Assembly: GCA_964036045.1 (NCBI GenBank)
Contig: OZ038391.1
Location: 45,023,621-45,087,620, forward strand
DNA length: 64,000 bases
Source of the DNA: Eutreptiella sp. 'Long Island Sound 2002'
Lineage: Eukaryota; Euglenozoa; Euglenophyceae; Eutreptiales; Eutreptiaceae
Direction: 5' to 3'
Under the pieces are notes generated by a model. It ran no database searches and was not told where the DNA came from. It was given only the letters and a program-made list of their open reading frames with translations. The stretch's first letter is position 1; each line of letters begins with the position of its first letter. Made by a program: the position numbers and the translations under genes. This document shows, piece after piece, positions 7,181 through 42,501 of the stretch.

Positions 7181-7660
7181 TGTAACGGCAGCAGTGCAAG
7201 CACTCAATTATACACTGATGTGATCAGAATTTCAATGATTCTCAGATGTACATTAGTGCAGTGAATTTTCCGCTTCATTTCATGTTTTCCGTTCGCCGCC
7301 AGATGTCGCCTGTGAGCGCGCGTCGAGTCGCATTTGTCTTTCGTGATTTCCCAATCGGATTTATTTAAATTATTTCGAATGATTTCACGTTGTGTCATTA
7401 TTTGCGATGAATGCGCATTGAGATTCTATGTCTGCTCCATTTTTGTAGACCGGGTTTTCGTACCTTTTATATTCCACCATGGAGTTCACTGGACTTACAA
7501 GTGCTTCGCATATGTCGCTCCCAGAGGCTGGATATGGGTCCGAAGAGGGTTATGTGGGTTCGGAAATATCAGGGGCAGTGTCGGGCGTTACGACCCCTGG
7601 GGCATCAAGGCTACAGGCTTCGCAGTCACAACAAAGATCAACCACTATGCAGCGGTTACA
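7181..7660 (+). repeat. 5' LTR of element B
   Basis: It starts TGTAACGG and ends GGTTACA, a perfect 6-bp terminal inverted repeat (TGTAAC/GTTACA) with standard TG...CA ends. It is nearly identical to 42022-42501 and the same length. The initiator-Met primer site follows at the next base. The likely Gag start codon (7479) lies inside this LTR. Confidence 0.9.
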
Positions 7661-10661: not shown

Positions 10662-11055
10662 GGAAGCCAACTTGACCCAAATCCCAACACTGGGGTTGAG
10701 TGGCAGGAGGAAAAACCCATCAGGGTAGTTGGGGCGGTGGATGGACGCTGCTGGGATCGACTGGCGCGGTCCTCCGGCCTCCTGTACCCTGCCTGGGTCC
10801 TCAGCGCTGTCCGGCGAGGCAAGCAGCGCCAGTTTGTCTGCTGGATCCAGGTCAGATCGACGGATGGCAAGGTTAAACTTGCCAGATGTCTGATTGACAA
10901 TGGTTCAGAGGTCAATCTGGTGAGGAAAGGCTTTCTGCAGGAGGATGAGACGAAGATGTCCTCCACCCCTGTGCAGCTGGAGGGAGTCAGCGGACATCGC
11001 CTTGACGGTGGCGACAGAGAAGCAGAATTGGCGGTCAGATTGGTGAAACAATCAG
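10662..11055 (+). pseudogene. pro: Element B protease, 5' part
   Basis: This is an aspartic protease in the same frame as Gag after one TAG. The motif CLIDNGSEVNLV corresponds to the retropepsin active-site region, normally D-S/T-G; here it reads D-N-G-S. The gene is cut at residue sequence LVKQS by the giant LINE and resumes at 36084 in the same frame (SVWSVEETV), so removing the insertion and one copy of ACAATCAG restores it. Confidence 0.75.
11048..11055 (+). repeat. Target-site duplication of the giant LINE, left
   Basis: ACAATCAG here is repeated at 36084-36091. Joining the flanks at this octamer gives a continuous protease frame. Confidence 0.9.
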
Positions 11056-11073
11056 GTAGGTAGGTAGGTAGGT
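11056..11073 (-). repeat. LINE 3' terminal microsatellite tail
   Basis: A GTAG-type tetranucleotide repeat on the plus strand (CTAC on the element strand) abuts the target duplication. Simple-repeat tails in place of poly-A occur in several LINE clades and mark the 3' end. Confidence 0.8.
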
Positions 11074-12071
11074 GCACTCGGTCGTGGAGAGGCGCCCCTT
11101 GGTTCCCCCTGGCGTCGCCCCTGTGACGAACAGGAAGAGGCTTCACGCGTGAAGAGGGGAGGCGGCTTACTTCCCGCTAGACCTGACTGTTGGCCCCCAA
11201 CAAAGCGGCCCCGGGCTACGCCGGGAGGGCTGATCGCCGCCAGCGTGACATGCTTGTCTCGCCGGGAGGGTGTGCCCCCGTGCTTGCGCACGTCCCCTCC
11301 TTTGGGCGGAACCCTAGGGGTTCACCGGACTTCCTGGCGTATCCCGTTCCCAAGGCGTGCATGCACGTTCCTGGTACTAGGGTTCCGAGGCGCTTGGGTG
11401 TCGCACGCTCCGCCTCGAGTCCCAAAGCAGCGCAGGCCTTAGGATGCAGCCTTACCCCCGGGCTCCGGATCTCGTTTGGCCGGGTCACCTGCATGGCACG
11501 GGCTGCCTCAGTGCCCGGGCTGTGGGCACTGGGTTTCCTACTGTTGTGTGGTGTTTGTGTTTGGGTCCGGTTGGCGGTTGGGTGCGGGTTTTGTTAACCC
11601 CGTCAGTCCTGGCTGGGGTTTAGGGTGGGTGTTTTTGGGCTCGATTTGTGGTGTTGTCCCTCTAGTGTCGGCTATCTGTGGTGTTCGCGGTTGGGCTTCG
11701 GTTTCGGCCTGCTTTTGGGATGTGTGTGGTTTCGTGGGCGCCCCGCTTGCCCCCCGCCGTTTCCGGTTCCGGCGCGCGGTGTGGGCGTGTGTGCTGGGCC
11801 CGGGTCTCGCCTGTGCCCAGTCCGTCTTGGCTGCATTGTCGGGGTGTTTTTTTTTTTTTTTTTTGCGCTTTGGTTTTTTCTTTTCTTTTTTTTTTTTTTT
11901 TCTGGGCTTTCTGGTCCCTGTCCCTCCATCCCCTTTCTTTTGGGCTGGGCTGGTGGCTCTCTTTTTTTTTTTTTTTTTTTTTTTCCGTGTCCCTTTTCCC
12001 CGTGGTCCGCTGTTACTGGCTTGCTGTTGCCGGTTTTGGGTTGGTGGTTCCCCTGTGCCTCTGCGGGGGTC

Positions 12072-12103
<32 letters not shown>

Positions 12104-13143
12104 CCTGGGGGGGGGGGCCTGGCCGCCTGTGTTGGTGTTGGCGGGTGGTTGGGCGGCTGTGGGCTGTTTTCGTGTCTTTTCCCCTTCCCCCCTCCTTTTT
12201 TTTTTGGGGGGGGGGGCTTGCCTGTTCCTCCCTCCGCCTTCCCTGGGCTGGCGCACGCACTGGCCTGTATTCAGTGTTGTCTTCCGGGCTGCTGTCTTCA
12301 GTTGCGTTCTGTGTGGCCATGTTCCGGCCCCATGGGTCGGGTGGGCTCTGTACACGGTGGGCTCGGCGCCCCTTCTTGCTGGGTTAGGTCCTGGCTCTGC
12401 CGGCTGGGCGGCTGCGCCAGGCGGCTGCTTGTGGTTTTGGGTTAGGGGGCTGGGGTTGCTCGTGTCCTTACCCCTCTGCGGTGCCGGCTGTAATCTTCTG
12501 GGTGGTCCGTCACCGTTGTCGCCTGGCGCGCTGTGGTCCCGTGTGTGGCCTGTGGTGCTGGTGTGTGGCGTGGTGGCGCGGCGCCTTCCCGGGTGTGCGG
12601 TGGCTGGCTTCGGTTAGTCCCTCAGATTAGGGTCAGTTGTGTCGTGTTGTGCCGCTCTGTGCCGCGTCGCGTCGCGTCGTGCTGTGGTGCGTTGCTCTGT
12701 GGCGCGCTGTGGTGCGGTGTGCCGTGGTCTCGCGTGGTGCCGCGGTGGGTCAGTGGAGGTCAGCCTGGCCTGTGTGGGTCGGTTAGGTCTTCGGGAAATT
12801 CTGCTGAATGATCACGGTGTCCTTGGGGCGTGCACCCTGACTCTCACCCATGGACTCAATCTTCACCGGGCCTCGCAGACAGGCAGGTGTACTCGGGGTG
12901 TAGGAAAGGCGTTCCTTCTCCAAGGCAGACAAACAGACATCAGGAGTCGGACGGTGGAGGTGGCTTCCGAACGCTGTTTGAGTGGGGAATGGCTTTCACT
13001 GCAGCTCGGCTGCGCTGGCAGGGTCCGGGTCGGTGCCGCCGGCAGGGATGAGCTCACACTGTAGGGTCAGGGGGATGTCCATATCTCCGGTGCTGGACTG
13101 CTGGGGTCCGGGGCATCGGTAGTATTCTTGGCACTTCCAGTCT
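11074..13143 (-). other. LINE 3' untranslated region with homopolymer runs
   Basis: No supported gene. Positions 11840-12220 contain several T-runs of about 15-22 bases on the plus strand (A-runs on the element strand) alternating with G- and C-runs. Open frames across it encode only Phe/Lys/Gly-rich low-complexity sequence and are not real. About 12640-12740 is a GTCGCGT/GTGGTGC-rich stretch. The 400 bases nearest the tail (11074-11500) are of ordinary complexity and may hold the RT recognition site. Confidence 0.6.
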
Positions 13144-13890
13144 TCACGGCGCTCGGAGATGGCCTTGAAGGGGGCACCGTCCAGCAGCACCAAAGCCTTC
13201 GCGATCGATCACAGCGTTTCGCTTCCCCTTGCGGTGCTCGATATTCATCATGGACGGGATCGGTGTGCCGCCGCAGTGCCATTCCTCCACTGGACGCAAC
13301 AGGTTGGTGACGGACGGACTCACGGACGTGAGACCAGCCGAGATCAAGCCCTCGTAGCAATACTCTGCGTCAAACCGCGACGGTAGCGCAGCCCGGCCCT
13401 TATAGCCCATGGTGTGGTCGCGTGACGGTCCGTGGGGTTGCCCTCCCTGGGGGCCTGTGCCTTGGTCCCGTGTCCTCTGGGGGTGTCGGTCCGTAGTCGT
13501 GGGTGCCGCGGCCGTGCTTTCGTCCTCTTCCGGTGCCTGTGAGTTGGCCTTCGTGGTGGTCGGGGTCGTCGGCTGGCGGTGAGGGCATGGTGGTGTGCCG
13601 TGCGGCGGTGTTCCCTGCGGCCTCCTCTGTGGGTGTGGCCCGTTCTCCCCGTGTAGGTGTGCCCTCCGTTCTCCGTGTGGTTTCCGGTGGCCGGTGGGCG
13701 TGCGCTGGTGTGATCCGCATGGCGTCCGATGTTTGCTTCGGTGGTGTGTGTTGGGGTGTTTGGTGGGGGTGGGGCGGCGCTGGTCTCCCCGTCGGTGTGG
13801 GTCGTGGTACCTGTCGTGGTGCCCTTTTCCTCCGTGTCTTGGTCCCCGTTCCCGCTCCTTCCTGGTTCTTGGGTGGTGTCCTGCCCCCAT
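13144..13890 (-). CDS. LINE ORF4, hypothetical protein
   Basis: A 248-codon frame begins 42 bases after the ORF3 stop. Residues 1-160 are His/Arg/Pro/Thr-rich low complexity. The last 85 residues are ordinary-looking, with aromatic, Cys and charged residues, which suggests a real C-terminal segment. I do not recognise the family. It could be an ORF3 tail displaced by a frameshift, or chance. Confidence 0.3.
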   Translation of the reverse strand: MGAGHHPRTRKERERGPRHGGKGHHDRYHDPHRRGDQRRPTPTKHPNTHHRSKHRTPCGSHQRTPTGHRKPHGERRAHLHGENGPHPQRRPQGTPPHGTPPCPHRQPTTPTTTKANSQAPEEDESTAAAPTTTDRHPQRTRDQGTGPQGGQPHGPSRDHTMGYKGRAALPSRFDAEYCYEGLISAGLTSVSPSVTNLLRPVEEWHCGGTPIPSMMNIEHRKGKRNAVIDREGFGAAGRCPLQGHLRAP

Positions 13891-13932
13891 GTGGTGTCAC
13901 TTCCGGCGCCCTGTCCCTGCGTGTGCCTGCCC

Positions 13933-16900
13933 TCACTTGGGGCCCTTCCGTGCCCTCTTGCCTGTGTGGTCCTTGGTGCCCCTTGCCCTTCCCTTGCCCT
14001 TGTCCGGGGCGGCCTCGTTGGGGTTTGCGGGGGTGCGGGTGCGCACCTCCTCGAAGGTATGCACCATGTGCATCCCTTCGTGCCTTCCCGCTCCTCCGGC
14101 CCATTTCACCCAGCCGCGGAGCTCCTGCAGAGCGGAGGGAGACCACCAGGCGAGGTAGGCGGGGGCCCGGGGGGGGGAGGGGTCCGTGCCTGGGGTCCTG
14201 GAGCGGCGGGGGGAAGACGTGGACCTGCGGTGGTGGCGGGGGTGGCGGTGCCTGGGGGAGCGGGAGCGGCGGCGGCGGGGGCTGGGGGTGGAGGACGGGT
14301 ACGGGCGGAGGGGGGAGCGGGAGGGGGAGGTGGACATGGGGCGGCGGTGGCGCGCTCGGTGGCGTCCGGGGGAGCGGGAGTGGTGGTGGCGGGGGCTGGG
14401 GGTGGTGGATGGGTACGGGTGGTGGGGGGAACGGGGAGCCCGGCGGGGCGTGTGGGGGGAGGGGGAGGTGGACGTGGGGCGGCAGTGGCGTGCCTGGCTG
14501 CGTCGGGGGGAGCGGGAGTGGTGGTGGCGGGGGCTGGGTGGCCGGTGGGGGGAGGGGGAGGGGGACATGGGGCGGCGGTGGCGCTCGTGGTGGTGCCCGG
14601 GGGAGCGGGAGCGACGTGAGCGGGGTCCCTGGGGGTCGTGGTGGTACCTGGGGGAGCGGGAGCGGCGCGAGTGGGTGGTTGAGGCGCGGTGGGAGTGTGG
14701 GCGCCGTGGGCGAGTGTGCCGTGCGGGGGGGGAGCGGGAGCGCCGCCGCTTGCGGGACCGGCCCTCGTCGCTCGAGTCGGGCCAGTCCGGAAGCGTCGGC
14801 GGCCTCTGGGGGGCCTTGCGCGGCGCCCCTTGGGGGGGGAGGTCCCCCGTCGTCCTTGGGGCCCCTTCGGCTATCGGATGGTGGCCGGGGGGGTACGGGG
14901 CGTCACGCGGTGCTGGTTGGGGGGGGAGGTCCCCCGTCGTCCATGGGGCCCCTTCGGCCATCGGATGGTGGCCGCGGGGGTACGGCTGGTACGGGGGTGG
15001 TGGCTGGTACGGGGGGGGTGGGTATGCGGGCGGGGCGTTCGGCGGCTGCCATCCCGTCCGCTGGTGCTGTTGGTGTACGGGGGGTTGTGGCCCGGTGGGG
15101 TAGGGCGGTGGGCAGTGGTAGTGGTGGGGGTGGTGTTGATAGTGGGGGTGGGGCCGCTGGTGGTGGTGGTGTGTGTAGTGGTGGGGTTGGTGTTGCGGGT
15201 ATGGCCCATGGAGTCCTTGTGGGTTTTCCGGTCCCCCTTGTGGGGGTGGGGGGTTGGGCATCGTGGGCAGTCCCCGGGGCTGCACTATGTGGTGGGCATG
15301 GGGGAAGGGTTGGGGGCCGGGCTTGACGGTGACGATGGTTGAGGGGTCCCACGTCCCTGGGTCGGTTTGGCCGGCGGTGGTGGTGGTTTGTGGGGGACGG
15401 ATGACGGGGCGCTTGGTGACGGGGATTTTGACGAGGGTTTGGACGGGGTCGTGCTGGGTGGCCGTCTCCGCGGTGGTGGTGGGTGCCGGCGGGAGGGGGG
15501 CGCGGGTCGTGGTGGGTGGGGGGTCCTGGCTCTGGCGAGGGCCCGGGCGGGGGAGGTATCGGGTGGTTTTGTGTCGTTGCGTATGCGGTGTTGTGTGTGG
15601 TCGCGTGGGCGCCGGCTTGGGTTTGGGGTCGGGTTTGGGGTTGGGGTCCGGTTTGGGTTTGGGGTCGGGTTTGGGGTTGGGGTCCGGTTCCAGGTTGAGG
15701 AGTACCTCTGTCCGGAGGTGTGAGGGCGTCGATGCCGGGTCGGGGGTCGTCCCGGTGGGTTGCCGGGGTGCCTGAGTCGCCTGTGTGGGGGTTGGGGGGT
15801 TGGTGCGTGCGGCCGCGGCTTTGGCTTTCGCCGTGGCCTTGAGGATGAGTTTGGCGGGGAGGGGGGGGTCGGAGGATGAGGTGGAGGAGGTGGACGAGGC
15901 TGAGGACGAGGAGGAGGTGGTGGACGCGGGATGGGCTGTGATGCGGGCGGGCTTGCGGGCGGCGGCTTCTGCTGCGGCCACGGCGGGGAGGATGGAGGGC
16001 ATGTCCCCGGGTTGTAGGTTGGGGGCGGGCGGCTGGGGGGGCCCGGTCGTGACCTGGCGTCCCGGCGGGCCGATCTGGTCGGCTGCGGCGGGGGAGGGAG
16101 GCGCGGGGCTGCGGCCTTCTCTTTCTGGGCTCGGCTGGGCCCGGGTCCTGCAATGTGCGAGGTCGTGTGGGTTGGTGTCAGCGGGGGGGAACAGTTCGCG
16201 TGGGCTGCATTCAGGGGCCGGGGGGGGTGGGCCTGGGTCCTCTGGGGTGTGTGTGGGGGGCGTGGGCGGGCCACTGGGTGGGGTGGGCGTGCTGCGGGGC
16301 GTGGGGCTCCCCGTGGCGGGTGTGTGTGGGTTGTCGAGTGTGGGGGGCGGTGAAGGGTGGCCGGTGGGTGGGTGTGTGGCGGGCGTGTGCTGGTGTACGG
16401 GCGGGTGGGGAAGGCCCGTGTCGCGGGGCCCGGGGGTGCGCGCGATAGTGGGCGTGTGTGGGTCTCCGGTTGAGCAGCGAGATGGGGGGGGCATGGGCGG
16501 GGATTGTGCGGGGGGTTGTGCTGTGCCGGTGTATGTGTCCGCTTGCTGCGCGCTTGCGTGGGTAGTTGTAGGCCGGGCGGTTTGGAGGAGAAGCTTGCCG
16601 TCTTCTGCTGCCGCGGCAAGGATTTCGCAGACGAGCGTTCGTATCTGGTGGACCTCTTGGTCAGTGGTGGGAAGGGGGCATGCTAGCTTTGGGCTAAGAC
16701 CCGCGCGGTTCAGGACCCTGTGGATGGCGTGGTTACCGCAGGTGAGGGACTGCTGCGGCCTGGGGGGGGGGTTTGGTCGTGTGTCCGGGCCTGCTTCGAC
16801 TTGTGTGTGGGCGGTGGGGATGGCCCAAACCCAGGGCACGGTCCCCGTGGGTGGCCAGTGGCGCTGGATCCAGTGGGTTAGGCAGAGCATGGACAATCCC

Positions 16901-17160
16901 AGGTGGTAGCCCGCCTTCCCTGAGGTGATTTGGGCCAGGGCGCGGGCTGGGGGCGTGTCCCCTGGCTGAAGGAGACCCCTGAGGATCCTGTGTTGGGTGG
17001 TGGGGTCCCCCACTGTCCCTGGTGGGGCGGTCTTCGGGGCGAACATGGTGTCTGTCCCCTGGATGATCCATTGCGGGCCGTGGGACGTAGCCATAGCGGC
17101 TATCACGTAGTAGTGGCCGCGCTCGAGGACTGTAACCCAGACCTCCGGCGGGGGGTGGTC
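13933..17160 (-). CDS. LINE ORF3, protease catalytic half and RS-rich tail
   Basis: Just upstream of the first usable start (17106) the frame reads GHYYV, then QWIIQGTD about 12 residues later, and QQSLTCGNH about 100 residues after that. This His...Asp...Gln...Cys-Gly order is the layout of Ulp1/SENP (C48) cysteine proteases. The Gln-to-Cys spacing is two residues shorter than usual. After residue 180 the protein is Pro/Thr-rich, with a repeated DPNPKPDPKPKP block around 15610-15690. Around 14170-14800 it carries a long Arg/Ser-rich (RSRSP) tail like that of splicing factors. The last 50 residues are Lys/Arg-rich. The N-terminal half lies in another frame (17161-17851). Confidence 0.55.
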   Translation of the reverse strand, partial: DHPPPEVWVTVLERGHYYVIAAMATSHGPQWIIQGTDTMFAPKTAPPGTVGDPTTQHRILRGLLQPGDTPPARALAQITSGKAGYHLGLSMLCLTHWIQRHWPPTGTVPWVWAIPTAHTQVEAGPDTRPNPPPRPQQSLTCGNHAIHRVLNRAGLSPKLACPLPTTDQEVHQIRTLVCEILAAAAEDGKLLLQTARPTTTHASAQQADTYTGTAQPPAQSPPMPPPSRCSTGDPHTPTIARTPGPRDTGLPHPPVHQHTPATHPPTGHPSPPPTLDNPHTPATGSPTPRSTPTPPSGPPTPPTHTPEDPGPPPPAPECSPRELFPPADTNPHDLAHCRTRAQPSPEREGRSPAPPSPAAADQIGPPGRQVTTGPPQPPAPNLQPGDMPSILPAVAAAEAAARKPARITAHPASTTSSSSSASSTSSTSSSDPPLPAKLILKATAKAKAAAARTNPPTPTQATQAPRQPTGTTPDPASTPSHLRTEVLLNLEPDPNPKPDPKPKPDPNPKPDPKPKPAPTRPHTTPHTQRHKTTRYLPRPGPRQSQDPPPTTTRAPLPPAPTTTAETATQHDPVQTLVKIPVTKRPVIRPPQTTTTAGQTDPGTWDPSTIVTVKPGPQPFPHAHHIVQPRGLPTMPNPPPPQGGPENPQGLHGPYPQHQPHHYTHHHHQRPHPHYQHHPHHYHCPPPYPTGPQPPVHQQHQRTGWQPPNAPPAYPPPPYQPPPPYQPYPRGHHPMAEGAPWTTGDLPPQPAPRDAPYPPGHHPIAEGAPRTTGDLPPQGAPRKAPQRPPTLPDWPDSSDEGRSRKRRRSRSPPARHTRPRRPHSHRASTTHSRRSRSPRYHHDPQGPRSRRSRSPGHHHERHRRPMSPSPSPHRPPSPRHHHSRSPRRSQARHCRPTSTSPSPHTPRRAPRSPHHPYPSTTPSPRHHHSRSPGRHRARHRRPMSTSPSRSPLRPYPSSTPSPRRRRSRSPRHRHPRHHRRSTSSPRRSRTPGTDPSPPRAPAYLAWWSPSALQELRGWVKWAGGAGRHEGMHMVHTFEEVRTRTPANPNEAAPDKGKGRARGTKDHTGKRARKGPK

Positions 17161-17851
17161 ACTGTCTGTAGGTGGGGGGGGGGAGGTCGTCGTCCGGGGT
17201 GCGGAGGCCGGCGGCGCGGAGGGCGGTGTCGCGGTTGGGCGCGGTGGCCTGTTCCCACTGCTCTGGGTGGTTCGGGTCCGCTGGGTGGTCCGTCTCCGCT
17301 TGGGCCCGCCGTAGGCGTCCGGTCCCTCGACGCGTGACGTTGCTGCCGGTGTCGTGCGTCAGGGCCTGGCCCCACTCGATGGGGGGGATCCAGATGGGCT
17401 GGCCCCGGGTGTGTTTGCGGGCTCGCCAGAGCACGAGGTCTACTATGGTCTCGTGGAGGCCGCTGCCTGGGGTGGTCAGGTCCCGGAGGGCTTTGACGGT
17501 GAGCTTGGTCCAGTCCTCTTGTAGGCGGTACCAGCCCAGGGGGGTGGTCGGGGCCCTGTCTTGGAGGGTCGCTCGGAGGAGGTCGGGGTCGCGGATGGTG
17601 GCCGGTGTGAGGGGGGGGTGCCCCGGGTCCGGGGGGGGTGGGCTGGATGGGCTGCCGGGGTCTTGCGCGTCTACGTCGATGGATGGTTGGCCCTGGCTGG
17701 GTTCGGCCGGACTGGGCGGTGACGGGTGGCTTCTTGGGTGCGAGACGGGTCTCGGGGCGCTGTGGTGGTGCCTTGGAGACCTGTGGATGGAGACGGGGGG
17801 CGCGTGCGGGGCGCGGAGCGGGTTAGTGGACGTCTGGGTCATGCACGGCAT
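17159..17851 (-). CDS. LINE ORF3, N-terminal part
   Basis: This 230-codon frame has an ATG that overlaps the last 29 bases of ORF2. It starts with a Pro/Ser/His-rich stretch. Residues 105-165 then form an ordinary domain (including GLHETIVDLVLWRAR and PIWIPPIEW) that resembles the N-terminal part of a Ulp1-type catalytic domain. It stops directly after a run of ten C (plus-strand G10 near 17174-17183). A +1 shift there joins it to the downstream frame, giving about 1300 residues. This may be a real mutation, a programmed shift or a homopolymer read error. Confidence 0.55.
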   Translation of the reverse strand: MPCMTQTSTNPLRAPHAPPVSIHRSPRHHHSAPRPVSHPRSHPSPPSPAEPSQGQPSIDVDAQDPGSPSSPPPPDPGHPPLTPATIRDPDLLRATLQDRAPTTPLGWYRLQEDWTKLTVKALRDLTTPGSGLHETIVDLVLWRARKHTRGQPIWIPPIEWGQALTHDTGSNVTRRGTGRLRRAQAETDHPADPNHPEQWEQATAPNRDTALRAAGLRTPDDDLPPPTYRQ

Positions 17852-20800
17852 GGTAATGGATGAGACGCTGCATGTGTTCCCTGGCGGTTGGGTCGGTGAG
17901 TTGTTCCGCGTGTGTTAGCAGGAGGTGTTTGCGGTGTACCATTTGGGCCGCTGCTCTGCGGACCGCTTCTAGCTGGAGGTGTGCTGCTGCCTCCATGGGG
18001 CTTTCCGTGTGTTTGGTGAGGTGTCGGTGCAGGGCCTGTGTCACTGCCCCTCTCATGGTGGCTTCTTTGATCAGGGGGTCCCGGAAGAGGTGTTCGGTGG
18101 CCTGGTGTGCGTGGCTGTGGGCTGGCCATCCTTCGTGTTGTCGCAGGGTTTCCGCCGGGGACCAGCCCACTAGGGTGTCCCTGTCTGTATGGAGGGGGCA
18201 TTTCTTGAAGTGTTCCCAGTCCTCCGGGGTGGTGTGGTCGCATGGGCAACGGGTGTGTTCATCGGGGGGGTGGATGTGCTTGCGGGCGAGCCATCTGGCG
18301 ACCCTGGTGAGGAAAGGCAGTTGCTCCCTGAGGAGCTGGATGCGTCGTTTCTGGAGGTGGGCTGGGACGTTTGCTGGGCGGAGCGCTGAGTGGTAGAGGG
18401 GGACTTGCAGTCTGTCCTGGAGCTCCTGGATGTGCGCCCGGCTGTCTGCGTCGCCGAGCACGCGGGCGAGATGGTGGACGGGGTTGGGGTAGTGGTACGC
18501 TCTGTCGTGGGAGGAATAGGGGGCGTCCTCTGGTACCCAGTCCGGGGTCAGATGGGGCTCGGGTACAGGGGGCACGTGTTGGAGGTGTGTGTGGTTGCGG
18601 CCGAGGTCAGGGATCTGGAGGGCTGGTAGGTGTGTTGTGCGCTGGTGTACTGCCTGGTTGTCGACCTTACCATTTCCGTATTGGTGCCTGTGGGACTCTT
18701 GTTTCACGATGTGGAGTTGGACGTGGGGGGGAAGGCTGCGTAGGGCTTTCCAGAGTAGCAGTGCCTGGGTGCCGAGGCTCGTCGCGGTTGCTTTGTGAAG
18801 TGGCTGCCTTGCTATGCGGAGGAGCAGGTGCGTGTCGACAGTGGCGTCTACCACGAACCAGACCCGGACGATGTGCGGGGAGTGGGCGGGTAGGTGGGCC
18901 GCGACCTCGGTGATGGCGTCGGCCATGGCCCCTAGCTCCCCGTGGGAAGAGGCCCCATAGGTGGTGTGGCCCGTGTGGTGGTCCATGTGGTAGTGTCCCC
19001 CGGTGTGGGTTAGCTGCAGGGTGGCCCCTCCGGTGATGGGCGTGAGGGCGGATTCGCCTGAGGCGTCGGTGAAGAAGAGCCGGTCCGCCGGTGATGGTTG
19101 TTGGAGGCGGCATGGGTTCATGGGCAGGTAGGCGTATATGGCAAGGCCCGTGGCGAGGTGGGCTACTGGGGTTGTGGGCTGTAGGATGGGGGTGGCGTAC
19201 ACCCCTATTCCTTTGGAGATGATGTGCTTCGCTTGGGGGGACAGGGCTATGAGTCCCTGCTCCGGCTGTCCTTGTGTGAGGTAGGAGTAGATGTAGTGGA
19301 GGATGTAGGCTGTGTCGGGGTTTAGGTCGTGGCATGTGAGGGTTTGTGTTCGGTGCTCCGGTGTGTGGCAGGAGTGGTGGAGTGGATAGTAGGGGTGCTC
19401 GTGCTTGCCCGTTCTGCCTGGCTCGTACATGCTGTAACGGATGGCGACCCCTGCCGGGTCGGGGCGGGGGCATGTGGGTGTAGTGGTGAAGAGCCATTTG
19501 GGCGCGTGGTCGGGGTTCCATGCTACCGTGGGGTTAGTGTCGGTGCGGTGGAACCATGGGGCTATCCATGCGTAGGCCTGTGGTGGTAGGTGGGTCGTGG
19601 GGTGGGTGTGGTGGCGTGCTATGAGGTGTAGCACGGGCCATGGTGCGGTTGGTGCCTCGGGGTCACAGGCCCAACATGTGCGTGGCATGCTCTGGGAATC
19701 TTGGGGGACCTTTGGTAGGTCTCGGGCGGTCATGTGGTGTTTCGGTATGCGCCATTTTGCCCCGTGGTGGATGACGGTGGTCTGCGTGGGTTTAGCTTCA
19801 TTCGGGGCCAGTAGCAGGGTTAGTGGTGGGACTGGGCCCGTTACTGGGGGGACACGTTCGTGGCTCGATCCGGTGGGTGCGTAGGGCGGTGTCTCTGGGA
19901 TGGGTCGCGGGTGTTGCTTTGTGAATTCTCGGTAGGCTGTGCGCATGTCTTTGCTGCCCGGTAGAGTGTGTCCCGCTGTTCGTGCCGTCTGTGTGAGGTA
20001 CTGGGGGAAGAGGCGGTATTGTGGCCATTCGGGAAGCTGTAGAAAGGGGGTGTGGTGTGCCCCGCTGTGGTGCAGGACCCGCATTTGGGCGAGGGTGACG
20101 TATACTACGGTGATGGAGGCCCCGACAAGGTCTATGGTGTGGATGGTGCCCTTGGGGTGGTGGTGGAGGTCCCCGCAGAGGACCGCTAGTGGCCCTTTCT
20201 CTGGGCACGTGTGGTTGGTGAGTATGGCGTGGTGTGGGGATGGGAGCAGAAGCTGCAGGTGGTTCCACAGGCGGGTGTTCATGTTGGTGGGCATGCCCGT
20301 CTGGTGGAGTACCCAGCGCGGGCATGTGTTGCGGGCCCGTTGTGCGGCTTGGAGGCGGATGGCGGTGACCTCGCGGACCTCCGGTGAGTGGTTGTGGGTC
20401 ATGCGGTGAAGGAGGAGGGCGGTGTGTCTGGTATAGGCCGCTTTCACCTCGTCCCCTATGGCGTCTCCATAGTGGGGCCATGCCGCTCGGATGGCGCGGG
20501 TGGGTATGGAGGTGGGCCAGCCCCCGTGTGCTGCCCATGCCTTGGTCACGGCGCGTGTGGCCGGCTGGAGGGCGGTGGTGGGGTGTGTTAGGTGGAGTGC
20601 TTGGAAGCCTATGGAGGCGTTCAGGACCCCGGTGAGGTAGTACGCCAGGCTCTGGTGGGACAGGGAGAGGGCCTTGGTGGTCGGGGACGCATATCTGGGG
20701 AGATGGGCGAGGTGTGACTGCAACTTGGGAGGGAGGGTGGCGTCCTCAGGGTTGGCGGCCTGGACTACCCCCAGGTGGGTGGTGGTCGTCACGACTTGCA

Positions 20801-26909: not shown

Positions 26910-29900
26910 GGGGGCTAGGGTGCTGGCCAGCGTGGCGTAGATGTCCTTTGGGGGGGGGGGGCGGTGGGGGCGTGGCGGCGCGGCCGGGGTCGGGCTCCTC
27001 TCGCTGGTGTTCCGCGTTCCGGTCTGCGGTGGACGCGGGGGATATGGGGCGTGGTGGCATGGGGTGGTCGGGCTCTTGCGGTTCCGTGGGTTGCTGGTGG
27101 GCTTGTGGGCGCGGGGCCGTGGCTGCCAGTAGGTGTCGGATGGCCGGGAGGATGTCGAAGTCGTCTTCCCAGCAGTGGGCTGGAGCGCACGCCCTGTTAG
27201 GGGAAGCGGGGGGGGGCGTGTTGCGGAGCGGTGTACGATAGGGTGGGCGACGCGTGCGGGTGGTGGCGTGCTCGCTCTGCCGTTCTGTTTCCCGCGGGCC
27301 CTGACCTTGGGGGTGGTGGTGTTGGTGATGTTGGTGGTGAGGGTGGTGTGGGCGCCGGAGTGGATGATTGTGTCCGTGGCGGCGCTGTTGGCGAGGGTGG
27401 TATGGGCGTTAGAGTAGATGAAGCTGGTGCTGGGCTATGGTTGATGGTGGTTAGCAGGTGGGTCAGCTGTTGTCGCTGTCGTCGTCGCCGGTGGTGTTGG
27501 TGTCTCTGATGACGAGGTGATGGTCGGTGAGCATGGAGTGGGTGACGTATGGGCGTATGTGGTGTTGTCGGTGGTAACGTTTGTGGGCCGGATGTGGCGG
27601 TGGTGGCGAGCGTGCTGTAGTTGACGGGTGGTGTGGCCCACGTCGCCTCCTGTGGTGGAGGTGTGATGGGTGCCGTGGTGGTGTCGGCTATGGTGGGGTG
27701 CCGCGGGTGGTGTATTGGTTGTTGGTGGTGGAGATATTCCTGGTTTGTGGGTAGTCCCTGTCCGGCGGTGGTGGTGTTGGTGGTGTCGGTGCTCGTTGAG
27801 GCCGTTGGCGACGCCGGGGGTTCCTGGTCTCGCGTGGGGTGGTGGTGGCGGTGGTGAGCGTAGGCGGTGCCATGGCGGTGGTGCCATTGACGGTTCGGCC
27901 GGGCGTGCTGGTGCCGGTTTCGGGTGTAAGTGTGGTTCGGGGTGCGGCATTGGTGGGTGGCTTTGACGGCGGGTGGCGTGACTGGTGGGTGGCAGCGGTA
28001 GGGGGGTGTCGGTTGTTGGTGAGGCTGTCGTTGTCGGTGTCCCGGTTGGTGCCGGTGACGGTGTCGCTGGCCGTGCAGATGGTGGGGGGGACTCGTACCC
28101 TGGGGTGGCCGTGGCGTTCGGTCGACGGTGGTGCTTCCGGTGGTGTTCGTGTGAGTTGGCCGGGAGTGGTGTCGGCGTTGCTCTGGCTGGTGCCGTGTGT
28201 GCGGGCTGTGTGATTTTTGCGTCCGGGGTCGGTGGCGTTGGTGACGGTGGTGTGTTGGGGGTCGGCGCCGGTGGTGACGGTCCGATGGTGAGGGTGCCGG
28301 GGACGTTGGGTGGGTCCGCGCTGTTGGGCTTTCTCCTCGCCATTTCTGGCGGAGGGTGCTGGCAGTGGTGTCGCTGGTGGCGAGGGTGTGTTGGTGTTGC
28401 TGTGGTGTTTTGTGCTGCTTGGGTGGGTGGTGGGGACCCCTGGTTGATGTTGACGTTGCTCCGGGTGATTTGGATGCGGTGGGTGCGATGGCGTGTGGCG
28501 TTGTTGTTTCTACCCTTGGTTGGGGGCCTGGTGGGCGGCGCTGGTGGCGTTTGTTCGCCAGCCGTGGTGGCGTCCTTGGTGGTGTCGTCGATGGGGGCGC
28601 CCTAGGTTTTACTCTGTGCCGGGGTCCTGGTGGTGGTGTTAGGGGTGTTGTGGCTGATGGTACCTTGGTTCGTCGTTGGTGGGGTTGGCGGTGGTGTGTC
28701 TCGCGGTGGTCCGGTGGCCTGTGTACCGGTGTTCGGTGGTTCCGGGCGTGCCATTCGTGGCTGGTGTTTGGCCGGTCTGTGGTCCTGGTGGTGTCCGCTG
28801 TCCGTGGGTCCGTAGTGACAGGTGTTGCTGCGGTTGCGGTTTAGGGTGACCTTGCTGCGGTTGGGTGGTGGTGTCGCCGTGTTGCCGCTGTCGGTGGTGC
28901 CGGTGTTGGCGTTGGTGGGGGTGCTGCCGGGGGAGCTGTGTGTGTTGGCGTTGTAGGGTGTTGTAAGTGCTGCCCTGGCGGTGTTCTGACGGCGGAGGGG
29001 GGACCTCGCCACTCCTGGCGGAGGTTCCCACGTGCGTCGTTGGCTGGTGGGTTGGCCTTGGCCCCCTCGGTGTCCTTGCTGCGGATGGTGTCTCACCGGG
29101 ATGCGGGATGGGGGATGCTCCGGGTTGCTGTCGGTGAGGTCGCACTGCCGGTGGCGCCGTCGGTGGTGCCGGTGGTGAGGTTGTTGCGGGCGCTGCTATG
29201 GTTCACGGTGTCTCTGATGTTGTTGATGCTGCTGGTGGTTGGTGTGGGTCTGTGTGTGGTTTGTCAGTGGCTGCTGCTGGTGCTGGTGGTGGTTCTGGGT
29301 GCGGGCCGGTGGGTGGCGCGGTTGGAACGCCTTTGGTGTAACTTGGCCGCTGGGTGGTTTCTTGTGTTGGTCCGTTGTTGGTTCCGGTCGTCCCCGTTGG
29401 TGAGGGTGTTGTGGTGTTCGGTTTGGGTGTTGGCGGCGGTGCAGGTGTGGGTGTCGCAGTTCCTGGCCCTGGGTCTTGGCGTGGCCGTTCGGGTGTTGCT
29501 GGGTGTGGGCGTTCGCCTCTCCTGGCTGAGGGCTCGGTGGCGTTCGTTCGCCAGCCGTGCTGGCGTCCTTGGTGACGCCGTTGGTGGGGTTGCCCTAGGT
29601 GGCGGGGCCGTGGTGGTGGTGTTGGGGGCGTTGTAGGTGACGGCACCTCGGCCCGTCGTTGGTGGGGTTGGTGGTGGTGTGGATAGTGCCGTGGGTGTTG
29701 GTGGCGTTGGTGTTGCCGAAGGCGAGGGTGCCTTATGTGTTACTTGGTGGTTGGCGTGTGTTGTGGTGGTCTGTTGGCGTGGGCGTTGTTGGTGTTGGTG
29801 CTGGGCGCGGCCTGTGTTTGGGTGGTCGGCGGTTCCGGGCGTGCCACTCGTGGCCGGCCGTCGCGGTGTTGGTGACGGTGCTGGCGAGGGCGCCGCCGGT

Positions 29901-31600
29901 GGAGCTGTGGCCGATGTGGGCGCTGCGGGTGTTGCCCTGGTGGATGGTGGTGTTCTGACGGCGGGGGTGGGACCTCGCCACTCCTGGTGGAGGTACCCAT
30001 GGGTGTCGCTGGCCTGTGTGTTGGCTCCCTTGGTGTTGTTGATGCCGATGGTGTCGTACCGGGCGGTGTTGCCGTGGCGATTGCTGTTGATGCTCTGGTT
30101 TGTCCGTGCTGAGGCCGTACTGCCGGTGTCGGTGTCGGTGATGCCGGTGGTGAGGTCGTTGTGGGCGTCGCTATGGTTCTCGGCGTCTCGGACGCTGCTG
30201 ATGCTGGTGGTGGTTGGCGTGGGTCTGTGTGTGGGTGGTCAGCGGCTTGCGTTCAGGGCGGTGGTCGGTTTCTGTGGCTCTGTCTGGGGGGGTGTGCAGT
30301 AGGTGGTGTGGTCCGCTGGTGCTGCTGTTGGTGTAGGTGGCGTAGGTGTTGCCCCGGGTGGTGTCGTGGGTGAGGGTGGTGTTGGCGGCGCCGGTGGTGT
30401 GGGTGTCGCCGGGGACTGCATGGTGGTTCCGGGCGCGTGCCCTCGCTTCCCCTGGCCGGGGCTTGGTGGTTTGTTGGCTCACCGGCTGTGGTGGTTTCGG
30501 TGTCCTCCGGTGGCAGAGGTTGCTGGTGGCGACGCTGATGGTGGGGTGTTGCCGGCGATGGTGTGCTTGATGTCGTTGTCGTGGGTGATGTAGGTGCTGG
30601 AACCGGCGGTGGCATGCGTAGGTGTCGTAGGCGTTGGTGCCGGCGGTGACGGTGTTGGTGAGGGTGTTGTGCTGGCTTGATTTTTGGCGGTGTTGGTGTT
30701 TCCGATGGCGTGGATGCCGGTGGCGGTGGTTCTGGGTGCGAGCCGGTGGGGGACCGGATCGGCTGGGTGCGGTCGTTGGTCAGTGTTGGGTGGGTTTTTG
30801 TGTTGGTTTGTTGTTGGTGAGGGTGTCCCTTGTCCTAGTGTTTTGGTGGGTGCTGGGGTCGCTGGTGTTGCCGATGGTGCTTCCGCTGGTTTCGGGTGTG
30901 TCCGCTGGTGAGGGTGTCGTGGCGTCCGGTTTGGGCGTTGGTGGCGGTGCTGGTGTGGGTGTCGTAGTGCCCGGTCCTGGTGTTGGGCGTGGCCGTTCGG
31001 TTGTTTCTGGGTGTGGCCGTTCGCCACTCCTGGCTGCGGGCTTGGTGGGTCCTCCTTTGCGTCCTAGCGGCTTCTGGCGGCCCTGCAGCCCCCCTGGCGG
31101 GGGGGGGTTGCTGGGTTCCTGTTGTTTGGGTTTGTGTGTGTTGTGTGTGTGGTGCGGGCGGCGCCTGCGCTTTGGTGTGTGGTGTGCGCTTATGGGGCTC
31201 GTGTCGGTGGCGGTTGTGGGGGTGTGTGTTGTGTGCACGCTCGGGCGTGTGTGCGGTGTGTTGGTGGTGCGTTTGGGCGCCTGCCCTCGCCTTTGCGGGC
31301 GTGGTTTGGCGGCCCTGTTTGGTGTGGGGGCTGTGTGTCGTGCCCCCCCCCCTGTCTCGGCTGTGTGGTTCCCCGCCCCCCTTGGCTGGGGTCTGTTGGT
31401 GGTGCGTCCCCTTGCTGTCCCCTTTGCGTGCCCTCCTCCTTCTGTCTCTTTTCCGTGTCGCTTGGGGCGGTGTCGTGCCCGGGCCTTCCCGGCTGTGGTG
31501 TGTGGGGGGGGGTCCTTGTCGCCGGCTCGGGTCCCTTCCCCTGTTGTTTCCCCGTGGGGGGGCCGGTGCTTGCACTCCCCGTCAGGGTGTAACTCTGTTG
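26910..31600 (-). other. LINE 5' region, G/T-rich low complexity
   Basis: No supported gene. The plus strand is a long run of GGTG, GTTGG and TGGTGG words with little C or A. Long frames on both strands encode only His/Thr/Pro or Val/Gly/Trp repeats. Short hairpin words of the form GCCACTCCTGGC appear at 29008 and 31023, with variants near 28335, 29830 and 29980. It likely belongs to the 5' untranslated part of the LINE. Confidence 0.55.
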
Positions 31601-32229
31601 TACGGATGCCGTCCATGGACCTGTTCCGTAGCCAGGTACTCCAGCCGTTCCCCACACCGGGGTCGGGTACACTGTGGGTCGCTGGGGAGTCCTTGCGGGA
31701 CAGGCGCGTCTCTTGCCTGCCCCGATGGACGGTGTGCCCTACCCGCAGCCCCTCGCTGGGCCCGAACCGCAGTACGTGCCGTGGGGAGTGCTCTTGGTCA
31801 GGCCCATTGGTCACTCCCCCAGGCCGGTGCCACCGCGGGCCGCTGACCAACGGTCCCGGGCGTATCCCACCTTATTGCGTGTGCTCAGGTGGGGCCGATA
31901 CGGTCACCGGGGGGGCCCCCAAACCCCTGAGGTTGGGTCCCTCTCCTGCGCCCCCCGTGGGCCCTTTTCGTCCCGCCCCCCTTTTCGCTGTGCGGTTTGC
32001 GGTGGTTGGTGTCCCGTCTCTCCGGGGTGGGGTGGTGGTGGTGGGGGGGGGGGGGGTGTTCGCTGTTCCTGGCTGTGTTGCTTGCGGGCGTGTCGCCCCC
32101 TCCTCTGGTCGTGGGTCGCCGCCGGTGTGTGTGTTTGTGGCGCGGTGCGTGCGCGCGTGGTGTCTGTGTTGGTGTGTGGTGCGTGGTTTGTGGTGTGTGG
32201 TGTGCGGTGGTGGTGTGTTGGTGGGGTTG
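31601..32229 (-). other. LINE 5' region, non-repetitive island
   Basis: About 300 bases from 31601 are of ordinary complexity and do not share the flanking repeat words; G-rich sequence then resumes. I recognise nothing in it. It may be a unique piece of the 5' UTR or a remnant of another sequence. Confidence 0.35.
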
Positions 32230-34310
32230 TGGCGGGTGTGTGGTGTGGTTGGTCCCTCGCCACTCCTGGCGGAGGTTCCTGTGTGCTACTCCCCGCCACT
32301 CCTGGCTGGGTTTCGCTGCCTGTGGTGTTGTGCGGCTCCCCGCCACTCCTGGCTGGGGTTCCACCGCCGGCAGTGGCGTGTGGTGTGTGGTGTGTGGTGT
32401 GTGGTGTGTGGTGAGCGGTGGCGGTGTGTTGGTGGGGTTGTGGCTGGTGTGTGGTGCGGTTGGTCCCTCACCACTCCTGGCAGAGGTTTCCGTGTGCTAC
32501 TCCCCGCCACTCCTGGTTGGGTTTCGCTGCCGGTGGTGGTGGGCGGTCCTCGCCACTCCTGGCTGAGGTCTCCGGGCGGCGGTGGTGTGTGGTGGGGTTG
32601 TGGCTGGTGTGTGGTGTGTTTGGTCCCTCGCCACTCCTGGCGGAGGTTCCTGTGTGCTACTCCCCGCCACTCCTGGCTGGGTTTCGCTGCCTGTGGTGGT
32701 GTGCGGTTCCCCGCCACTCCTTGCTGGGGCCTGCTGGCGGCGGTGGTGCGTGGCGCGTGGTGTGTGGTGTGTGGTGTGTGGTGGGCGGCGGTGCTGTGTT
32801 GGTGGGGTTGTGGCTGTGGTTGGTCCCTCGCCACTCCTGGCGGAGGTTCCTGTGTTCTACTCCCCGCCACTCCTGGCTGGGTTTCGATGCCGGTGGCGGT
32901 GGGCGGTCCTCGCCACTCCTGGCTGAGGGCCCTGGGCGCGGTTTCCCGTCACTCCTGGCTGGGGTTCGCTGGCGGCGGCGGTGTGTGGTGGGGTTGTGGT
33001 TGGTGTGTGGTGTGGTTGGTCCCTCGCCACCCCTGGCGGAGTTTCCTGTGTGCTACTCCCCGCCACTCCTGGCTGGGTTTCGCTGCCGGTGGTGGTGGGC
33101 GGTCCCCGCCACTCCTGGCTGGGGTCCGCTGGCGGCGGTGGTGTGTGGTGTGTGGCGGTGGTGTGTTGGTCGTTGGTCCCTCGCCACTCCTGGCGGAGGT
33201 TCCTGTGTGCTACTCCCCGCCACTCCTGGCTGGGTTTCGCTGCTGGTGGTGGTGGGCGGTCCTCGCCACTCCTGGCTGGGGTCCGTTGGCGGCGGTGTGT
33301 GGCGTGGTCGGTCCCTCGCCACTCCTGGCGGAGGTTCCTGCGTGCTACTCCCCGCCACTCCTGGCTGGGTTTCGCTGCCGGTGGTGGTGTGCGGTTTCCC
33401 GCCACTCCTGGCTGGGGCCTGCTGGCGGTGCTGGTGCGTGGTGTGTGGTGTGTGGTGTGCGGCGGTGGTGTGTTGGCGGGGTTGTGGGTGGTGTGTGGTG
33501 TGGTTGGTCCCTCGCCACTCCTGGCGGAGGTTCCTGTGTGCTACTCCCCGCCACTCCTGGCTGGGTTTCGCTGCCGGTGGTGGTGGGCGGTCCCCGCCAC
33601 TCCTGGCTGGGGTCCGCTGGCGGCGGTGGTGTGTGGTGTGTGGCGGTGGTGTGTTGGTTGTTGGTCCCTCGCCACTCCTGGCAGAGGTTCCTGTGTGCTA
33701 CTCCCCGCCAGTCCTGGCTGGGTTTCGCTGCTGGTGGTGGTGGGCGGTCCTCGCCACTCCTGGCTGGGGTCCGTTGGCGGCGGTGTGTGGCGTGGTCGGC
33801 CCCTCGCCACTCCTGGCGGGGGTTCCTGCGTGCTACTCCCCGCCACTCCTGGCTGGGTTTCGGTGCCGGTGGTGGTGTGTGGTCCCCCGCCTCTCCCGGC
33901 TGGGGTCCGCTGGCGGCGGTGGTGTGTGGTGTGTGGTGTGTGGTGTGTGGTGTGCGGTGGTGGTGTGCTGGTGGGGTTGCGGCTGGTGTGTAGTGTGGTT
34001 GGTTCCTCGCCACTCCCGGCGGAGGTTCCTGTGTGCTACTCCCCGCCACTCCTGGCTGGGTTTCGCTGCCGGCGGTCGTGGGCGTTCCTCGCCACTCCTG
34101 GCGGAGGGTCCCGGGCGCGGTTCCCCGCCACTCCTGGCTGGGTTTCGCTGTCGGCGGTGGTGCGTGGTGTGCGGTGTGTGGTGTGCGGCGTGTGGCGTGC
34201 GGCGGTGGCGTGTGTGGTGGGTTTGTGGCTGGTGTGGTTGGTCCCTCGCCACTCCTGGCGGAGGTTCCTGTGTGCTACTCCCCGCCACTCCTGGCTGGGT
34301 TTCGCTGCCG
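32230..34310 (-). repeat. Tandem array of short palindromes in the LINE 5' region
   Basis: About 35-40 copies of GCCACTCCTGGC or near variants recur every 35-75 bases. Each can fold as a GCCA/TGGC stem with a CTCC loop, and CGCCACTCCTGGCG copies extend the stem. They alternate in two settings, one followed by GGAGGTTCCTGTGTGCTACT and the other by TGGGTTTCGCTGCC. A higher-order period of about 490 bp is visible from 33021 to 33509 to 34004. TGTGG microsatellite fills the gaps. Confidence 0.85.
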
Positions 34311-34599
34311 GTGGTGGTGTGGTGTGGTGGTGCGGTGGGTGTGTCTTCCGGGTGCCCTTCCCCTTGGCCCTGGTGTGTGTGTGTGCGCTGTGTGGCCCTT
34401 CGTGTTGGTGTGGGTGGCGTGGGGGGGGGGGGGTCGCGCTCGGTGTGGCTGTCGTGCGTGCGCGTGTGTGTGCTCGCGGTGTGTGGTTGGTGGGGTGGGG
34501 TGTGTCATACCTTGGCTGGTTCTCGTCGTCGGTCGTCGGCATGTTTCAAAAGGCAGAAGAAGAGGTCCTGTAGATGCGTAGCAGAGATGCGTGGCATGT

Positions 34600-35600
34600 G
34601 TGATGCGTAGCACGTACCTGTCCTTTCGTCCCATCATGTTTTCTTCCCCTGTTGAGAAAGAGCGTGCGCAGGTCCTTTTTGTTTTTTTTTTTGCGTGTTG
34701 TGGTTTGTGTCTCCTCCCTCGTGTTTTTTTTTTCTCTCGCTGCGTCTTCGATAACATACCCCTCCGCATTGTGTTTCCCCTATAGAGAGGGCGTGGAAGG
34801 CGGTTTCGTGGTTTTTTTTTTTTCAACATACTTGTTGTACCTTGTGCCGCTTCTTGTTGCCGTCCCCTATAGAGAAAGCGTGTGTTTGTTTGTGGGTGGG
34901 GCGGGGGTGGGGTTGCATACCATGACTTTCCTTTGTCTCGTCTCCGTCTTCGTGCATCTTGCGGCTTTGTGTGCGTTTGTGTTTTCGTCCCCTTGGCGCC
35001 TCCCCTCGCATTTTTAACATACTTGTTCGTCATACCTCCATACCATTGTTTCCCCGTGGTACGTGGTCATTCCCTATAGCGAGAGCGTGTGTGTGTTTGC
35101 GGGCGCGGCGGTGTGGGGTTCATACCTTGTTTTTCCTTGCTCTTGTCTCCGTCTTCTCGCTCCTTGCGGTCTTGTTTATGTGTGTGCGTGTGTGCGTGGT
35201 CCGTCCCTTTGGCGCCCTCCCTCGTATTGTTAACATACTTGCTCGCCATACCGTTGTTTCCTCGTGGTTGGTGAACGTTCTCTTGTTCGCCTTTTCATTG
35301 TTTCCCCTTTGTCCGTGGCCGCCCCATACCTTTTGCGCTTTTGTGGATTTTTTTTTTTTTTCGCGGCGGTCGGGGCCAATGGAGGAATAAATATGGGGGA
35401 TATATGGTTGTGGTTTGTGTTTGCGGGCGTGCCTTTTGACGTGCGTGGCGGTTCGTCGTTCTTTTGTTTTTTTTTTTGCGTGCGGTGTTGTCCCTTGGGC
35501 GCCCTCCTTCGCAACATACTTGGTTTTCTCATCCACGTATGCGTGGCGGTGGATACGATATGTATGACGCATGGGGCCGTAACATACTTCGTTGTCATAC
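34600..35600 (-). repeat. Irregular tandem repeats near the LINE 5' end
   Basis: Blocks containing TTGGCGCC, CCCTCG and AACATACTTG recur, with AACATACTTG or a variant at 34825, 35016, 35232, 35513 and 35581. CCCTATAGAGA-type words lie between the first copies (near 34780, 34865, 35073). Units are about 190-280 bp. Repeated 5' monomers can carry promoters in LINEs; that role is inferred here. Confidence 0.6.
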
Positions 35601-35699
35601 CTCGTTTTCCCGTGGTCCGTGGTCGCGTCTTTTTTGTTTGTGGTTTGGTGTTTCTCTTTTTGTTGCGTTTCCTTCTCTCTTTTTTTTTTTTTTGACGCT

Positions 35700-35890
35700 T
35701 ACATGTCGCCTAGCTCCTATGGCACGCACTTTGCTAGGTGGCTCGGCGCTCGCTTTGTTCTTGTCTTCGTCGTCGTGGCTTGCTGGTTTTTGGTGTTCGC
35801 CTCTTTTCTTCTTCTTTGTTTGTGGAGCGCGCACAAGTCCCTAGCGCCTAGGACACGCACTTTGCTAGGTGTTTTGGAGCATGCAACGCT
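35700..35890 (-). repeat. Two-copy repeat near the LINE 5' end
   Basis: Two copies of a roughly 30-base word around CACGCACTTTGCTAGG lie at about 35709 and 35840, a spacing of 131 bases. From 35890 to 36083 the sequence is unique and ends at the target duplication. Confidence 0.55.
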
Positions 35891-36083
35891 CAGGTTCTTC
35901 GCCGTCGCGACTCTATTGTTCGTCTTTGTTTTGTGAGTGTCCTAAATTTTGCGACCTCGCCAAACAGCGGCGTAAAATTTTTGGGGGGGTTTCTGAGGTC
36001 GGAAAAAACGATTTTTCGCTTTATTTTTGCTGGCGGTGCGTCGTTTTCTTAGTTTTGTATTATTCTTCTGCTGCGATCGTGCG

Positions 36084-36091
36084 ACAATCAG
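36084..36091 (+). repeat. Target-site duplication of the giant LINE, right
   Basis: ACAATCAG, identical to 11048-11055. Downstream, element B's protease resumes in frame. Confidence 0.9.
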
Positions 36092-42010: not shown

Positions 42011-42021
42011 CAGAGGGGGAG
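42011..42021 (+). other. Polypurine tract of B
   Basis: CAGAGGGGGAG directly precedes the TGTAAC start of the right LTR, the expected place for plus-strand priming. Confidence 0.8.
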
Positions 42022-42501
42022 TGTAACGGCAGCAGTGACAGCACTCAATTATACACTGATGTGATCAGAGTTTCAATGATTCTCAGATGTACATTAGTGC
42101 AGTAAATTTTCCGCTTCATTTCATGTTTTCCGTTCGCCGCCAGATGTCGCCTGTGAGCGCGCGTCGAGTCGCATTTGTCTTTCGTGATTTCCCAATCGGA
42201 TTTATTTAAATTATTTCGAATGATTTCACGTTGTGTCATTATTTGCGATGAATGCGCATTGAGATTCTATGTCTGCTCCATTTTTGTAGACCGGGTTTTC
42301 GTACCTTTCATATTCCACCATGGAGTTCACTGGACTTACAAGTGCTTCGCATATGTCGCTCCCAGAGGCTGGATATGGGTCCGAAGAGGGTTATGTGGGT
42401 TCGGAGATATCAGGGGCAGTGTCGGGCGTTACGACCCCTGGGGCATCAAGGCTACAGGCTTCGCAGTCACAACAAAGATCAACCACTATGCAGCGGTTAC
42501 A
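42022..42501 (+). repeat. 3' LTR of B, also 5' LTR of a second copy
   Basis: 480 bp, same ends and near-identical sequence as 7181-7660. It is preceded by B's polypurine tract, as a 3' LTR should be, yet followed by a primer site (42502) and gag, as a 5' LTR should be. This marks a tandem arrangement from LTR recombination. Confidence 0.85.

Follow-up and report, generated by a model that had tools for sequence, protein, structure and literature searches.

Long interspersed nuclear elements (LINEs) are usually 4-8 kb long. A 64,000-nucleotide stretch of the genome of the euglenophyte Eutreptiella sp. 'Long Island Sound 2002' (assembly GCA_964036045.1, contig OZ038391.1, positions 45,023,621 to 45,087,620; hereafter the window) raises the question of whether an interval of about 25 kb can be one such element. 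An earlier note on this DNA had proposed that window positions 11056-36083 form a single transposition unit of roughly this size. We compared the interval with other copies in the same assembly, and the proposal holds: it is one non-LTR unit (LTR, long terminal repeat), as concluded from recurrent 5' and 3' ends lying about 25 kb apart, target-site duplications of 8-14 bp, collinear interiors, empty sites and scattered 5' truncation. We put the probability at roughly 93% that the interval is a single LINE-type retrotransposon of about 25 kb, likely inserted when one full-length RNA underwent target-primed reverse transcription.

The element lies on the minus strand within the protease gene of an LTR retrotransposon, element B. 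Two exact copies of the 8-bp string ACAATCAG directly abut the interval, and joining the flanks with this string kept once yields a single open frame across the element B protease, reading ELAVRLVKQS up to the join and VWSVEETVTEEWFAGKFYEASIKYDLFLGQPWLH after it. Both observations agree with the earlier note, as does the microsatellite tail, a (CCTA)n run that sits at the 3' end expected of a minus-strand element. Taken alone, the 8-bp match is modest evidence, because one of 156 mismatched flank pairs also reached 8 bp (9 bp was reached in none of the 156); it abuts both ends exactly, however, and sister copies carry duplications of 9-14 bp. Below, element coordinates (e) count from the 5' end of the insert, with e = 36084 minus the window position.

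We searched the assembly that holds the window (2.28 Gb, 2,205 contigs) and scored the best 26 of 32,584 places picked up by a loose first-look criterion. All 26 copies, the window included, contain an uninterrupted second open reading frame (ORF2) of 1,782 amino acids with 99-100% identity. Comparison of their ends, a check proposed in the earlier note, showed that 10 of the 26 share the 5' end at e1-e36: the window, C2:158.7 (e36), C7 (e17) and, all at e1, C8:35.6, C18, C17, C5:27.5, C1:6.7, C5:124.8 and C11:0.99. Others are cut at scattered points and keep the 3' end. Five exact 5' truncations were found at five different positions (e770, e11495, e11553, e11802 and e12700). Five further 5' ends are bracketed by samples, two at about e4.9-7.9k, one at e8.7-9.3k (near window position 27 kb) and two at e9.5-11.4k, with a missing sample taken as truncation where a nested insert is also possible. 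Copy C9:9.19 has an interruption of about 8.5 kb after e6592, and C8:63.4 was sampled to 1.5 kb. The 3' end, with its (CCTA)n tail, recurs at e25017-e25028 in 22 of the 24 other copies sampled; one of the two misses is C20, whose sampled stretch has no match beyond e22757. Nine copies, the window included, could be measured from end to end and are all close to 25 kb (Table), leaving out C17, the other 3' miss, and C6:97.7, which is truncated at e770 and spans 24,122 bp. In C8 and C11, all 19 of 19 interior samples (e3.8k-e23.1k, including those from window positions 27-36 kb) are collinear with the window copy at 90-100% identity.

Duplications, empty sites and junction sequences point in the same direction. 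Junction pairs were tried for 15 copies, of which 13 were usable; C17 and C20 were dropped as no tail was found. Target-site duplications of 8-14 bp are present in 10 of these 13 copies, and in nine the shared 8-14-bp string lies within 60 nt of the junctions. Exact empty sites occur in the window itself for two of five insertions tested, each aligning over 300 of 300 bp without gaps: the joined flanks of C7 correspond to window positions 52869-53168, in element C, at 97%, and those of C1 to positions 720-1019 at 94.7%. Five copies that start at e1 or e17 (C8, C7, C5:27.5, C1 and C11) carry 24-39 nt of copy-specific filler between the duplication and the element. This filler came with the insertion, since the C7 and C1 empty sites lack it. 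In the three truncated copies for which a duplication was found, the duplication adjoins the element directly (3 of 3). The two bases before e1 are GT in seven copies and in the window. At least nine copies have nearly the full length, and each probably arose when one giant RNA was reverse-transcribed.

Table. Features of the element and its insertion site in window coordinates
Feature	Position	Strand	Remarks
Whole element, 25,028 bp	11056..36083	-	duplication at both ends; nine copies 24,702-25,360 bp end to end; collinear interior samples
Target-site duplication ACAATCAG (on +), element's 5' side	36084..36091	.	exact match to other copy
5' region before first Met of ORF1, 9,174 nt	26910..36083	-	T makes up 1-12% of each 500-nt bin on the sense strand; C8 and C11 samples collinear
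A-rich 5' end (first ~1.5 kb)	34508..36083	-	holds 29 of 41 ATGs of the 5' region
GC-rich tandem array with GCCAGGAGTGGC motifs	32170..34321	-	strong repeat, ~2.1 kb
ORF1 from first Met, 1,245 aa, ends in UGA (23174-23172)	23172..26909	-	no Pfam family; relatives P0020-P0030
45 codons from ORF1 UGA to first in-frame ORF2 AUG; first strand of predicted endonuclease fold	23037..23171	-	
ORF2 frame, 1,782 aa, first Met codon 46 (window 23036); reverse transcriptase and predicted endonuclease; RNase H by motif only	17823..23171	-	
ORF3 region; ATG at 17851 overlaps ORF2 end	13933..17851	-	window copy frame-shifted after 230 codons
3' region	11074..13932	-	one array-motif copy at 11598
3' tail (CCTA)n	11056..11073	-	same 3' end in other copies
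Target-site duplication ACAATCAG, element's 3' side	11048..11055	.	exact match to other copy

The coding sequence identifies the type of element. From 5' to 3' it comprises the 5' region, ORF1, one UGA, ORF2 in the same frame as ORF1, ORF3, the 3' region and the tail. ORF2 contains a reverse transcriptase (Pfam RVT_1, E 2.9e-14), and its best sequence matches in the PDB are to L1 ORF2p (E 1.1e-12). A predicted fold supports an endonuclease of the apurinic/apyrimidinic endonuclease (APE) type. The earlier note had described an endonuclease/reverse transcriptase/RNase H frame: the first two are borne out by the fold prediction and by Pfam, whereas RNase H lacks profile support, the motifs DASG, HGEL, VVDA and GNGxxDxQA after the reverse transcriptase having been read by eye and being kept in relatives, with no RNase H match in Pfam or the PDB. 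RNase H-bearing LINE clades include I, R1 and Tad, but the domain does not define LINEs as such. The Pfam search of the element proteins, the one search that bears on it, returned no restriction-like endonuclease. ORF1 is the long frame that had been claimed; a cupin-like domain suspected in it by eye was dropped, as no Pfam family was found and PDB matches were at chance level. No inverted repeat pair of 60 nt or more was found in the window and no direct repeat links the element ends at E 1e-20, nor is there a known RNA or ribozyme in the Rfam search of positions 11000-36200 at E up to 1. The element hence has the features of a LINE, namely a LINE-type reverse transcriptase, a predicted APE-type endonuclease, no terminal repeats, variable duplications, and a recurrent tailed 3' end with scattered 5' truncation. 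An LTR retrotransposon was rejected for want of long terminal repeats, and a Penelope-like or Terminon identity on the L1 ORF2p sequence matches of the reverse transcriptase and the predicted APE-type endonuclease.

How ORF2 is expressed is a separate question. All 26 copies have the same UGA between ORF1 and ORF2, in the same context (CCC UGA CGG), and none of them has an in-frame AUG between the UGA and codon 46. The predicted endonuclease fold aligns from residue 19-20, that is, before the first AUG of ORF2, and a 43%-identical relative retains residues ahead of this Met; the catalytic Asn of the L1 endonuclease (N14) presumably corresponds to a residue in the same segment, before the first Met. 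Because ORF1 and ORF2 share one frame across a single UGA and the endonuclease fold appears to start before the first AUG, ORF2 is likely made by UGA readthrough as an ORF1-ORF2 fusion, which is the simplest reading. Alternatively, translation could begin right after the UGA, by termination-reinitiation or from a non-AUG codon. The new frame does open immediately past the UGA, the ORF3 AUG overlapping the ORF2 stop resembles reinitiation, and the relative P0010 is annotated with a starting Met near the homologous position. We nevertheless find such a start doubtful, though a serious contender: the predicted endonuclease would use residues from 19 onwards in copies that offer no AUG there, and the deposited protein P0030 has a residue where the UGA would stand, its ORF1 continuing into ORF2. 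Together, the conserved single UGA and the predicted endonuclease beginning upstream of the AUG mean that readthrough in a LINE can be tested directly here.

It is conceivable that the interval is a composite, in which an ordinary LINE of about 16 kb with its 5' end near 27 kb joined a separate 9-kb repeat element that had been inserted or captured upstream. ORF1 does start at 26909, and the 5' region is repetitive and, as far as seen, non-coding. Such a composite is highly improbable, as the shared 5' end lies about 25 kb from the shared 3' end in the 10 copies listed above (the 3' end of C17 being incomplete), the 5' region is collinear in C8 and C11, and the exact empty sites of C7 and C1, which start at e17 and e1, indicate that this region arrives with the rest. 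Breakpoints are scattered, with no cluster at 27 kb. Indeed, the earlier note had stated what would speak against one unit, namely copies whose 5' end falls near 27 kb and in which the 27-36 kb part is missing or moves separately; no recurrent end was found there among the 26 scored copies. The recurrent ends, the collinear samples and the empty sites were the grounds for rejecting a nested or composite element. Spread at the DNA level by segmental duplication, gene conversion or a DNA transposase, which the close similarity of the copies (mean pairwise ORF2 difference 0.59% among the 26) might suggest, is very unlikely given the recurrent 3' end with its short-repeat tail, 5' truncation with the 3' end retained, duplications of variable length, a LINE-type reverse transcriptase, the lack of any reported inverted repeat of at least 60 nt in the window, and two exact empty sites that argue against duplication of the flanks.

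Several observations weigh against a single LINE unit. Because scoring picked out the best 26 of 32,584 places, the share of full-length copies is likely inflated and the ratio of nonsynonymous to synonymous differences (pN/pS) in ORF2 likely deflated. Four copies are in register at e4.8k, their 5' end not being located in the sampled stretch, and one (C5:48.5) breaks near 27 kb, between about e8662 and e9313. The 3' match of C17 stops at e24904. The 14-bp duplication of C2 lies 102 nt away, in a 700-nt flank that had no matched control, no duplication was found for C18, C5:124.8 and C4:104 (3 of 13), and that of C8 is ambiguous, its target being a tandem repeat. The window held no clean empty site for C11 and C6 (no match) or for C2 (a match in two pieces), and the window copy is full-length yet has no filler. 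The endonuclease model has a mean predicted local distance difference test score (pLDDT) of 61.5, with about 50 for the strand before the Met, and LINE endonucleases match this model no better than cellular AP endonucleases do.

The insertion structure makes target-primed reverse transcription the likely route by which the single LINE unit moves. Transcription would start at or near the recurrent 5' end, from a promoter within the 9-kb 5' region. ORF1 would be translated, and some ribosomes may pass the in-frame UGA to give an ORF1-ORF2 fusion carrying the endonuclease and the reverse transcriptase; for ORF3, reinitiation at its AUG, which overlaps the ORF2 stop, is the probable mode of translation. 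The endonuclease would then nick the target, where the (CCUA)n tail could prime with an overlap of 1-3 nt. The enzyme would copy up to 25 kb in one pass, with early stops giving truncated copies. Runs that reach the end of the RNA would often add 24-39 nt of filler before joining, probably by a template jump. Upstream transcription is a second candidate for the origin of the filler.

Size, ORF layout and 5' junction set the element apart from known LINEs, which are regarded as compact, their length limited by early reverse transcription stops. In APE-type LINEs such as L1, R1 and TRAS1, as here, an APE-like endonuclease lies N-terminal to the LINE reverse transcriptase in ORF2, ORF1 is upstream, and copies show a short tail, variable target-site duplications and 5' truncation. 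Unlike these, the present element is about 25 kb long, with a 9-kb 5' region, a long third ORF, a single UGA dividing the shared frame of ORF1 and ORF2, and filler at several full-length 5' junctions. The Drosophila telomeric element TART is about 10-13 kb long; the excess sequence of TART and HeT-A is 3' and the elements are telomeric, whereas here it is mostly 5' and the identified targets (window, C7 and C1) lie inside LTR elements. TART and HeT-A are likewise non-LTR elements enlarged by non-coding sequence; one source describes unusually long 3' untranslated regions, and non-terminal repeats in TART (PMC5537684). Terminons, Penelope-like elements of rotifers, are described in the accessible sections of a review on giant transposons as reaching 40 kb, with several ORFs and mostly 5'-truncated copies; these sections mention non-LTR elements for 3' transduction of 1-3 kb and not as giants (PMC6431247). 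Our element resembles Terminons in being a giant retroelement with several ORFs and many 5'-truncated copies, but they are Penelope-class, endonuclease-deficient and telomeric, in contrast to the LINE reverse transcriptase and predicted APE-type endonuclease found here.

Literature searches over open-licence PMC text returned, in titles and the starts of abstracts, no report of a LINE near 25 kb, although one may still have been published. Tentatively, with chances a little short of even, we propose that no larger autonomous LINE has yet been seen: the family would copy a 25-kb RNA in one pass, and often enough for many full-length copies to result, would make its reverse transcriptase as a UGA-readthrough extension of a giant ORF1, and would seal finished insertions by a jump to a second template that leaves copy-specific filler marking full-length events. 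Of the 26 best-scoring copies, ten are 25-kb insertions of essentially full length, which suggests that target-primed copying can reach such a length repeatedly, and the ORF2 enzyme is a natural candidate for the study and use of highly processive reverse transcription. Repeat libraries that expect 4-8 kb could split such elements into unrelated 'unknown' pieces.

The 26 copies probably moved recently, as judged from their mean pairwise ORF2 difference. In comparisons among copies, ORF2 has a pN/pS of 0.23, a value biased by copy selection; the final 1,497 nt of ORF1 give 0.42 (153 pairs; open in 19 of 22 copies), and codons 1-508 of ORF3 give 0.64 (18 copies, 153 pairs). Relatives of ORF2 in public protein clusters include clusters of 758 members (99% identity), 573 (93%) and 469 (50%), and those of ORF1 form one cluster of 509 members (92%). 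One scan with six peptide patterns found no relatives in viral contigs. The relatives P0007, P0009 and P0010, at 43-50% identity and one of them with 469 member sequences, represent a second large family.

The 5' region has the length of about 9 kb stated in the earlier note, but a strong array makes up only some 2.1 kb (32.17-34.32 kb); the remainder consists of weaker repeats, which extend down to 28.9 kb. The array motif GCCAGGAGTGGCGGGG, allowing up to three mismatches, recurs six times beyond the array on the same strand of the element (28335, 29004, 29973, 31019, 31371 and 11598), a count that none of 200 shuffled motifs reached; the opposite strand has three weaker matches. A 15-of-16 match to GCCAGGAGTGGCGGGG also lies outside the element, at window position 60914 in the outer LTR element. 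Across the 25 kb the sense strand is strongly depleted of T, with 1-15% in every full 500-nt bin. It is likely that this scarcity accounts for the many long open frames, since it leaves few stop codons.

ORF3, claimed in the earlier note, is a real frame (open throughout the 508 codons covered in 17 of 26 copies) but runs out of frame after 230 codons in the window copy. By eye it has motifs resembling an Ulp1-like cysteine protease, with no match in Pfam or the PDB and a structure model at pLDDT 38.7. An Ulp1-like cysteine protease is described for NeSL of nematodes and for Utopia-1_TSP (PMC4640811), and the likeness of the ORF3 motifs to it is one seen by eye. NeSL and Utopia differ in using a restriction-like endonuclease (PMC4640811) and in having the protease N-terminal in the reverse transcriptase protein, whereas our element has a predicted APE-type endonuclease and a downstream ORF3. 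In the deposited protein P0034 a different LINE (Pfam RVT_1 and RNase_H) is fused to the ORF3 of this family, as if one LINE had inserted into another.

The insertions in the window, C7 and C1 all sit within LTR retrotransposon sequence. The window holds a nest of LTR elements at 4234-63241, with a repeat pair at 4234-4937 and 62535-63241 (96%) and further pairs at 7180-8579 and 42021-43420 (98.9%) and at 43953-46319 and 54792-57158 (98%). Oddly, the repeat of element B seems to take in the start of its own gag frame.

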